A DNA stretch of 37,976 nt. Origin: Lysobacterales bacterium. Its GTDB lineage: Bacteria > Pseudomonadota > Gammaproteobacteria > Xanthomonadales > SZUA-5. The DNA lies in the NCBI GenBank assembly GCA_019187485.1, contig JABAQR010000038.1, positions 68,407 to 106,382 on the forward strand, read 5' to 3'. The translations under genes and the position numbers were made by a program. The notes under the pieces are model-generated. The model did no database searches. It saw only the letters and a program-made list of their open reading frames with translations, and was not told the origin of the DNA. Each line of letters opens with the position of its first letter. Positions within the stretch are counted from its first letter, which is position 1. This document shows, piece by piece, positions 23,194 to 26,297 of the stretch.

Positions 23194-24210
23194 TCAGGCG
23201 GCCCTGTCCTGCACGCCTGCCTGCTGCAGCCAGCTCATGCGCGCGCGCAAACGCTTGCCGACCGACTCGATCGGGTGCGCGAGGTCGCGCTCGAGCAGGG
23301 CCTTGTAGTTCGGGCAGCCGTTCTCGTTCTCGGCGATCCACTCGCGTGCGAAGCTGCCGTTGCGGATCTCTTCGAGCACTTCGCGCATGGCCTTGCGCGA
23401 AGCGCCGTTGACCACCCGCGGGCCGCGCGTCAGGTCGCCGTACTTGGCGGTGTCGGAGATGAACTGGTGCATGCGCGCCATGCCGCCTTCGTACAGCAGG
23501 TCGACGATCAGCTTGAGTTCGTGCAGCACCTCGAAATAGGCCACTTCCGGCTGGTAGCCGGCCTGCACCAGGGTCTCGAAGCCCGCCTGCACGAGTTCGG
23601 TGGCGCCACCGCAGAGCACCGCCTGCTCGCCGAACAGATCGGTCTCGGTCTCTTCCGCGAAGGTGGTCTCGAGCACGCCCGCGTGCGCGGAACCGACGCC
23701 CCAGGCCCAGGCCAGCGCACGCGCCTTGGCGGTGCCGGTGGCGTCCTGGTGGACCGCGATCAGGCTCGGCACGCCGCGGCCCTCCTCGTACTGGCGACGC
23801 ACCAGCTTGCCCGGTGCCTTCGGCGCGACCAGGGCGACGTCGACATCCTTCGGCGGGCTGATCGTGCCGTAGTGGATGTTGAAGCCGTGCGCAAACATCA
23901 GCAGCGTGCCGGCCTTCAGGTAAGGCGCCACGTAGTTCCTGTAGGCCTTCGGCTGCTCGGTATCCGGCAGCAGCAGCGAGATCACGTGCGCATCCTTGCA
24001 CGCGGTCGCGGCGTCCTTCGGCTTGAAGCCGTCGGCCTCCGCCTGCGCCCAGGTCTTGCCGCCCGGACGCAGCGCGATGGTGACGTCGAAACCGGAATCC
24101 TTGAGATTCATCGCCTGCGCGCGGCCCTGGCTGCCGTAGCCCAGGATGACGATGCGCTGGCCCTTCAGGGCCTCGGGTTGCACATCGGCGTCGGAATAGA
24201 GTTTGGTCAT
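23194..24210 (-). CDS. ilvC: ketol-acid reductoisomerase
   Basis: Second common step of valine, leucine and isoleucine synthesis: alkyl migration and NADPH reduction of acetohydroxy acids. A class I enzyme of 338 residues. The NADPH loop 'GYGSQG' is at 24-29, and the metal-binding acidic residues lie in '[13 protein letters not shown]' and '[17 protein letters not shown]'. '[10 protein letters not shown]' fixes the start at 24210. It lies downstream of ilvD on the same strand, separated by a 213-base gap filled mainly by an inverted-repeat element, so cotranscription may be reduced there. Confidence 0.97.
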
Positions 24211-24248: not shown

Positions 24249-24424
24249 AAGCAGGGGAAAATGGAAAAAGAAAAAGGGAAACGGAAAAGCGGCTGCTGGC
24301 CGGATTGTGGGGGCGAGGCGGTCATGTGAAGGGAGGGCCGAATTCGTATTCATTGAACTTGGCGCTTGCGGCGAGTTGCTCCTGCTCTTCCCTTTTCCAT
24401 TTTCCTTTTCCCCTTTTCCTGCTT
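24249..24424. repeat. purine-rich inverted repeat element between ilvD and ilvC
   Basis: Two arms of about 41 bases, 24249-24290 (purine-rich: GGGGAAAATGGAAAAAG and more) and 24384-24424 (pyrimidine-rich), are imperfectly complementary and flank a 93-base centre of ordinary composition. The A/G-only arms stand out sharply from the surrounding GC-rich DNA. The right arm abuts the ilvD stop codon. The form suggests a small non-autonomous palindromic insertion; the polypurine tracts could also form a triplex or a long hairpin that affects ilvC expression. Confidence 0.75.
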
Positions 24425-26073
24425 CAGAGCGCTCCGCGGTGGGTCGGCGCTCCATCGGAGGCCGATCCCACCAGTTGCGCGTATTTGGCGAGCACGCCGC
24501 AGGTCTCCGCCAGCGGCTTCGGGACGTAGCGACGCTCGGCGAGCGGCGCGTCCACATCCAGCACGCGCGCGTCGACGTCCAGCGTGATCTCATCGCCGTC
24601 GGCGACCAGCGCGATCGGCCCGCCGCGCGCGGCTTCCGGCGACACATGGCCGACCATGAAGCCGTGGGTGGCGCCGCTGAAGCGGCCGTCGGTGACCAGC
24701 GCGACCGAGTCGCCAAGGCCAGCGCCCATCAGCGCCGCGGTCACCTTCAGCATCTCCGGCATGCCGGGCGCGCCGACCGGGCCGACGTGGCGGATCACGA
24801 TCACGTCGCCGGCCTGGATGCGGCCCGCCGCAACCGCATCGAAGACTTCGGATTCGGCGTCGAACACCCGCGCCGGGCCGACGTGGCGGCGGCGGTCGTG
24901 GCCGACCAGCTTGACCACGCAGCCCTCCGGCGCGAGCGAGCCGCGCAGGATCGCGATCCCACCCTCGGCCTTGATCGGCTGCTCCCAGCGGCGCAGCACC
25001 TGCTGGCCCTCGCGCTCGACGGCAAGCTCCGCCTCGGCGTGCATGCGCTGGCCGGAGACAGTCTCGCCATCGTGCAATCGACCCTGTTCCTTGAGCCGCT
25101 GCGCGACCAGGCGCAGGCCACCGGCCAGGGTCATGTCGGGCGCTGCAAAGCGGCCACCGGGTTTCATGTCGGCGAGCACCGGCGTGCTCCGGCTGATCGC
25201 GTCGAAGTCCTCGAGCGCCAGCCTGACGCCGCACTCGCGCGCGATCGCCAGCAGGTGCAGCACGGCATTGGTCGAGCCGCCGGTGACCATCACCGCGGCG
25301 ATCGCGTTCTCGAAGGCCTGGCGGGTCATGATCTGGCGCGGCTTCAGATCGCGGCGCAGCAGGTCCATGACCGCGCGACCGGCCTCGAAGGCCGCCGCCG
25401 GCTTGCCCGGATGCAGCGCCGGCAAATCGGTGCCGTCCATGCTCGCGATGCCGAGGAAAGCCAGCGCGGTCGCCATCGTGTTCGCGGTGAACTGGCCGCC
25501 GCAGGCGCCGGCGCCGGGGCAGGCCTTGCCTTCCAGTTCCAGCAACTCGTCCTTGCTGATCTTGCCGGCGCGGCAGGCGCCGACCGCCTCGAACATGTCC
25601 TGGATGGTGAGGTCGCGGCCGCCGTGGTGGCCGGGCATGATCGAGCCGCCGTAGACCGCGAGGCCCGGCTGGTTCATGCGCGCGAGCGCCATCGCCGCGG
25701 CCGGGATGGTCTTGTCGCAGCCGGTCAGGACCACGACGCCGTCGAAGGAGTGGCCGCGGACAAAGAGCTCGATCGTGTCCGCGATCCAGTCGCGCGAGAC
25801 CAGCGAGGCGCGCATGCCGGGCGTGCCCATGCTGATGCCGTCCGAGACCACGATGGTGTTGCCCTCGATCGGCGTGCCGCCGGCCGCGCGCACGCCGTCC
25901 TTCACCTGCTGCGCGAGCTCGCGCAGGTGCATGTTGCAGGGGGTGACTTCGCTGAAGGTGCTGACCACCGCGATCAGCGGCTTTTCCAGGTCCGCCGGCG
26001 TCAGTCCGGTCGCACGCAGCATCGCGCGCGCCGGCGCGTGGTCGGGAAAGGCCTTGATCTGGTCGGATTGCAT
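24424..26073 (-). CDS. ilvD: dihydroxy-acid dehydratase
   Basis: Iron-sulfur enzyme that dehydrates dihydroxy acids to the keto acids of valine and isoleucine. The 549 residues include the cluster cysteines Cys 46 ('EVTPCNMHL'), Cys 119 ('[10 protein letters not shown]') and Cys 191 ('[11 protein letters not shown]'), plus '[19 protein letters not shown]' and the C-terminal '[20 protein letters not shown]'. It is the roughly 550-residue form, shorter than E. coli IlvD. GGAGG lies about five bases before the ATG at 26073. An upstream leader with a Val-rich mini-ORF suggests attenuation by charged branched-chain tRNA. Confidence 0.97.
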
Positions 26074-26297
26074 CGAACCTCCGGGCTGGGAGGCTCTGCA
26101 TCGGCTGCGGGGCGCATCGGCAGGCCCCGGTGTTTCCGAGTGCAGGGCCCTTGCGTGTATCCGTGACTTAGGGAGCCTGCACTCGGGGCGCAAGCGTTGC
26201 GACGACGACTCGGAAAGCGCCGCTGGTGGAACTGGACGTCGGGCAAAGCGCGTTGTGCATAGCAGCAAAGGTGCCGGCGCGAAGGCGCGGTTGTCAA
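26074..26297 (-). promoter_or_regulatory. ilvDC leader: promoter and candidate attenuator
   Basis: Read on minus: perfect -35 TTGACA (26297-26292), then a weak -10 region about 17 bases on, which would place the transcript start almost at the leader ATG (26260). After the leader peptide, an 11-bp perfect stem CCGAGTGCAGG (26186-26176) / CCTGCACTCGG (26146-26136) spans the leader stop codon. A second hairpin, GCCCCG-type 6-bp stem (26129-26124 / 26113-26108), follows before the ilvD ribosome site. No U-tract is seen, so control might act on ilvD translation or through Rho, not a classical terminator. Confidence 0.5.
26168..26260 (-). CDS. putative ilvDC leader peptide, 30 residues
   Basis: ATG 26260 to TAA 26168 encodes a short peptide with the central run 'FRVVVATLA' (three consecutive GTC valine codons, then Thr and Leu), ending 'PRVQAP'. 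It lies between a TTGACA promoter element and ilvD, and its last codons overlap the 5' arm of an 11-bp hairpin. Clustered codons for the pathway end products, next to exclusive structures, are the mark of ribosome-mediated attenuation. No ribosome site precedes the ATG; if transcription begins as the promoter spacing suggests, the peptide would be read from a nearly leaderless mRNA. Confidence 0.5.

Follow-up and report, generated by a model that had tools for sequence, protein, structure and literature searches.

The window, by which we mean the whole 37,976-nt stretch of Lysobacterales DNA that was analysed, carries on its minus strand ilvD, the predicted first regulated gene, with ilvC downstream of it, and both identities passed the NCBIfam cut-offs (Table 1). 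The ilvD start codon lies at 26073, and ilvC adjoins ilvD also in G002, G004, G007, G003, G008 and other genomes. Between the two genes, we found a 26-nt purine-rich inverted repeat with 85% complementarity (24255-24280/24388-24413), short pieces of which recur at three other genomic sites; this element may belong to a dispersed repeat, or it may influence ilvC expression.

A valine-rich leader with predicted alternative hairpins upstream of ilvD

Upstream of ilvD, the initial annotation had proposed a TTGACA element, a 30-codon mini-ORF with three consecutive valine codons, an 11-bp perfect hairpin overlapping the end of this ORF and its stop, and a second hairpin ahead of the ilvD ribosome site. 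All four were recovered, with one amendment: the 11-bp hairpin is exact and does lie over the end of the ORF, but the stop codon sits in its loop and not in its stem. A likely -10 element was assigned by aligning the promoters of the family, in which its counterpart is TACCTT in G002, G003 and G008; it is a poor -10 and was missed by a consensus promoter scan. The two absences listed in the initial annotation also held. No ribosome site precedes the leader ATG, and a terminator scan found neither a U-run nor a terminator-like site in the window leader. When the upstream region was shuffled, a leader ORF with a V/I/L run placed 35-39 nt behind TTGAC arose in 1 of 2000 shuffles.

Two further elements, absent from the initial annotation, were a third hairpin, which lies over the ilvD Shine-Dalgarno (SD), and region 4, a second partner for region 3. 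Having this second downstream partner, region 3 could take part in a classic 2:3 versus 3:4 switch, a model which requires region 4 to resemble region 2, and region 4 is indeed a near copy of region 2. In folding, the inner hairpin was compatible with both the 2:3 and the 3:4 state. The length of the 11-bp perfect stem was reached by 0 of 150 dinucleotide shuffles. The folding energy of the whole leader was unremarkable (z -1.45) and is weak as evidence, so the case rests on comparison. A search of Rfam 15 gave no match to the window above the gathering threshold.

Table 1 Features of the ilvD leader and of the genes behind it.
Feature	Position	Strand	Observation or evidence
-35 element TTGACA	26292..26297	-	seen in the sequence
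Likely -10 element CACCTT	26268..26273	-	7 nt 5' of the leader ATG; family promoter alignment
Leader ORF, 30 codons, leaderless (predicted)	26168..26260	-	V/L/I-rich counterparts in relatives
Control codons GTC GTC GTC (VVV)	26201..26209	-	V/L/I runs of the other family leaders
Leader ORF stop	26168-26170	-	in the loop of the 11-bp stem
Region 2 (CCGAGTGCAGG), end of leader ORF, anti-3:4 arm	26176..26186	-	exact 11-bp complement of region 3
11-bp inverted repeat, arms CCGAGTGCAGG and CCTGCACTCGG	26186-26176 / 26146-26136	-	perfect match
Region 3 (GGCCCTGCACTCGG), partner of region 2 or region 4	26136..26149	-	identical in G002; folding
Inner hairpin CGGGGC 26129-26124 / GCCCCG 26113-26108	26108..26129	-	arms kept in G002
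Region 4 (CCGATGCAGAGCC), alternative partner of region 3	26092..26104	-	12/13 bases kept in G002
SD hairpin GAGCCTCC 26096-26089 / GGAGGTTC 26082-26075	26075..26096	-	masks the ilvD Shine-Dalgarno
ilvD Shine-Dalgarno GGAGG	26082-26078	-	inside the GAGCCTCC/GGAGGTTC hairpin
ilvD, dihydroxy-acid dehydratase, first regulated gene (predicted)	24424..26073	-	TIGR00110 and NF002068 above cut-off
ilvC, ketol-acid reductoisomerase, downstream of ilvD	23194..24210	-	TIGR00465 and NF004017 above cut-off

Conservation of the leader within the family and across the order

We compared nine genomes of the window's family (f1, in which the window genome is G000). In G002, from the same genus, TTGACA and TACCTT precede the leader MHNDFTSTQLNTGLTSVGSPVVVGVVITERQVQAA. 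The V/L/I run reads VVVGVVI in G002, VLVVVVL in G008 and LVVVLV in G003, the latter two genomes representing another genus of the family, and the valine run of the window is the shortest among these four family leaders. The family is set apart by its four leader-bearing genomes, which keep region 3 and have no U-run. Their 3:4 stem is longer and imperfect, with a hairpin of the GGGGC/GCCCC type inside it. A further hairpin, next to region 4 or overlapping it, holds a strong GGAGG and is formed in G003 and G008 by other sequence (CCTTCG..CGGAGG). This U-less form is represented by only four genomes, too few for a covariation test.

Identity between the leader stop and ilvD reached 88% for G000/G002 (76/86) and 85% for G003/G008 (81/95), compared with 61% at four-fold ilvD sites for either pair. 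Regions 3 and 4 and the SD hairpin are nearly unchanged, and the constraint reaches the ilvD start codon. This excess over four-fold sites makes decay unlikely in the two leader-bearing genera. Decay of the leader seems to have happened in two other genera of the family: G004 and G007, from a sister genus, have kept the promoter and lost the leader (loci L104 and L103), and G005 has kept the ORF, with the valine run absent. The loss of the leader or of its valine codons in two genera indicates that the system is dispensable. At L103 and L104 the ilvD start lies about 20-30 nt downstream of the predicted transcription start, and no clear Shine-Dalgarno was seen there. An ilvD of matching type was not found in the incomplete assemblies of G001 and G006.

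Outside the family, a V/L/I-rich leader ORF precedes ilvD in 32 relatives from families f2, f4, f6, f8 and f10, among them named Lysobacter and Luteimonas genomes, and the ORF ends in runs such as ALVLVLVLIISLTGSG. In these relatives the promoter fills the space ahead of the leader ATG, which leaves no ribosome site there. The distance from TTGAC to the leader ATG is 35-39 nt in all 32 (L018 being counted from its downstream ATG, 36 nt from TTGAC), and a T-run of 4 or more follows the leader in 30 of them. This spacing strongly suggests that, throughout the order, the transcript of the ilvD leaders starts at the leader ATG; together with the missing ribosome site it agrees with the leaderless peptide considered in the initial annotation, which we likewise predict. 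The order's ilvD leaders (L022, L116, L163, L166 and others) share with the window leader this spacing, a V/L/I ORF upstream of ilvD that is predicted to be leaderless, and complementarity of the ORF tail with region 3. A compact hairpin with a U-run closes these leaders, a combination which the window's family lacks, and the family adds the SD hairpin. Of 80 upstream regions, 37 had the motif; the opposite strand gave 1 and shuffles gave about 0. This count is descriptive only, because its threshold was set after examples had been seen and the loci are related. Comparison of ilvD upstream regions thus found leader codons and stems to be conserved, and the recurrence of leader ORF, V/L/I codons and stem in relatives bears out the initial reading of a branched-chain attenuator-type leader upstream of ilvDC. 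Among the control codons of the relatives (e.g. L116), GTA, CTT and ATT are frequent, within DNA that is GC-rich elsewhere (CTCGTACTCGTACTCGTACTCATTATT); this could hint at a preference for low-usage codons.

Folding with an imposed ribosome supports a 2:3/3:4 choice

Equilibrium folding past the complete terminator of canonical relatives nearly always returned the terminator and did not reveal the switch. For the order-wide fold, RNA polymerase was therefore set immediately downstream of region 3 and a ribosome footprint was imposed. With the ribosome on the V/L/I run, 2:3 pairing averaged 9.1 bp and exceeded 5 bp in 36 of the 38 leaders tested, compared with 1.9 bp when the ribosome was at the stop codon and 3.4 bp with shuffled ORF tails. 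Walking the ribosome along the four family leaders gave 2:3 pairing on the control codons, followed by 3:4; for G003 and G008, 2:3 pairing was favoured almost exclusively while the ribosome was on the control codons. A choice between 2:3 and 3:4 is supported, as a prediction from sequence, by the sequence itself, by conservation and by folding. Generic duplex energies of the ORF tails with downstream RNA, which we also tried, were noisy.

Proposed mechanism and alternative explanations

We consider it probable that the element is a ribosome-mediated branched-chain amino-acid attenuator, in which a leaderless leader peptide supplies the sensor and the switch. The fixed promoter spacing points to RNA polymerase initiating on the A of the leader ATG or directly beside it, and to a ribosome that would load on the 5' end of the transcript. 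If charged Val-tRNA were short, the ribosome would wait on VVV and leave region 2 free to pair with region 3, which would block 3:4 and allow ilvD-ilvC to be expressed. If valine were plentiful, a ribosome at the stop codon would cover region 2, so that 3:4 would form behind RNA polymerase and expression would drop. For the last step, we infer only that 3:4 would act on transcription, by pausing or by Rho-assisted termination. Since the U-run of the relatives is missing, such a transcriptional output through 3:4 appears the likeliest, and Rho-assisted or pause-linked termination is preferred because it retains the ancestral logic. A purely transcriptional output (U-less, or Rho-assisted or pause-linked termination) is nevertheless a tentative choice, to which we give slightly under an even chance.

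The main alternative to a transcriptional output is ilvD translation, the switch having been re-wired to access to the ilvD SD in place of the lost U-run terminator. This would be in keeping with the hairpin around the strong GGAGG, found next to or overlapping region 4 in both leader-bearing genera although its sequences differ, and with the sequence constraint as far as the ilvD start codon. Furthermore, the computed cost of opening the ilvD start differs between the 2:3 and 3:4 states by 6.5-8.9 kcal/mol in the four family leaders, and elsewhere this difference is small (1.6, sd 2.3). However, for a biosynthetic gene the predicted effect runs the wrong way, with the stalled state closing the ilvD start. 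The difference in the window also drops to 0.6 kcal/mol once 18 more bases of ilvD are included and is thus sensitive to transcript length; the ribosome walk showed it as small or absent. A translational switch that was consistent and ran in the sensible direction did not emerge from folding of the family leaders, and we regard a translational attenuator as unlikely, at perhaps one chance among several. Less likely again is a decaying relic, in which the terminator was lost in the family and the leader has no function in the window genome. The absent U-run, the leader deletions in G004 and G007, the valine run missing from G005 and the short valine run of the window would all fit such decay, but the stop-to-ilvD identity far exceeds that of four-fold sites in two separate pairs, with little change in regions 3 and 4 or in the SD hairpin, and the folding switch is intact in the family leaders. 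That a short ORF and an inverted repeat merely coincided in a GC-rich region might be argued from the modest folding z-score and the lack of an Rfam match; position, spacing, codon content and stem are conserved order-wide, however, and these comparative data in practice refute chance, to which we give almost no weight.

Apart from the preferred transcriptional reading of the window, the family as a whole may have exchanged intrinsic termination for a U-less output (SD-hairpin gating or Rho) while valine sensing was kept, a conversion that we put at not quite an even chance. If true, ancestral, converted and lost attenuator states would stand side by side in one order. The window's family illustrates how an attenuator may retain its sensor and switch despite losing its U-run terminator, and its sister genera show outright loss.

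Relation to known leaders

The enterobacterial ilvL/ilvGMEDA system combines control codons for V/L/I with a 2:3/3:4 switch, and its ilvL leader carries a conventional 5' untranslated region, a ribosome site and an intrinsic terminator. The window leader shares the V/L/I leader peptide and the 2:3/3:4 arrangement with this system, but lacks the intrinsic terminator and the leader ribosome site. Judged against canonical attenuators, it has a run of end-product codons in the leader ORF and, as predicted by folding, mutually exclusive 2:3 and 3:4 pairings, whereas a GC-rich 3:4 hairpin followed by a U-run is found in none of the four family leaders. Because this U-run terminator is missing, we class the window leader as a variant that stands outside the canonical class. 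Nor does it behave as an SD-sequestering attenuator in prediction, in which the stalled state closes the ilvD start or changes little.

Leaders of similar design occur in other bacteria. In Corynebacterium, ilvBNC (the ilvB-II motif) has a leaderless leader without a ribosome site, VVV codons and alternative hairpins (PMC11857589, PMC10272879), and a leaderless valine-codon leader peptide before ilvBNC is credited to Morbach et al. 2000, as cited in PMC10272879. The VVV control codons recur in the window leader, as do, by prediction, the leaderless start and the alternative hairpins, but the Corynebacterium system belongs to another phylum, precedes other genes and has a demonstrated transcription terminator. 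In Sinorhizobium meliloti, the leader ORF's ATG is where the trpL attenuator transcript begins (PMC7298713), as is predicted for the window leader; in contrast to the latter, this system concerns tryptophan and trpE(G) in an alphaproteobacterium. The actinobacterial LEU element before leuA has a predicted leader ORF and an SD-masking stem and no terminator (PMC1262725), and thus resembles the window in combining control codons and an SD-masking stem without a terminator. Its predicted pseudoknot pairs leucine codons with the SD, a pairing not seen in the window. We found no description of such leaders for the order in the open-access literature, and older work (e.g. that of Vitreschak and colleagues 2004 on proteobacterial attenuators) may list some. 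Leaderless ilv and trp leaders are already known elsewhere, and the window leader is a new variant.

Leaders before leuA and ilvC

The leuA gene of the window genome has its own predicted leaderless leader, MKFLPHRNMAAVDALLALRLLARPCEVCGCPGV (L215, at G000:C26, upstream of 17068). It is a leucine leader, lies 37 nt behind TTGACA and is followed by a hairpin and then TTTCGCTTTAT, a T-rich tail; it is conserved in G001 and G002. A U-run is thus present after the leuA leader of this genome, unlike its ilvD leader. The occurrence of this leuA leader in the genome counts in favour of the proposed attenuator. No such leader was found in the window genome before AHAS, hisG or the aspartate kinases.

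The same arrangement is seen upstream of leuA in family f12, and some f2 and f7 members have it upstream of ilvC. Across the ilvD, leuA and ilvC leaders of the whole order, the promoter-to-ATG spacing is fixed, which suggests that leaderless leader peptides are the order's usual means of branched-chain control. Such a rule would tie attenuation to leaderless initiation, a mode of initiation thought to respond to stress differently from SD-led initiation. In f12 (L222, L224, L225 and L233), the ilvD leader is absent and a V/L/I leader, predicted to be leaderless, stands before leuA instead. At the f12 loci examined closely, ilvD follows an apparent leuB, as if a single leader served a joint leu-ilv operon.
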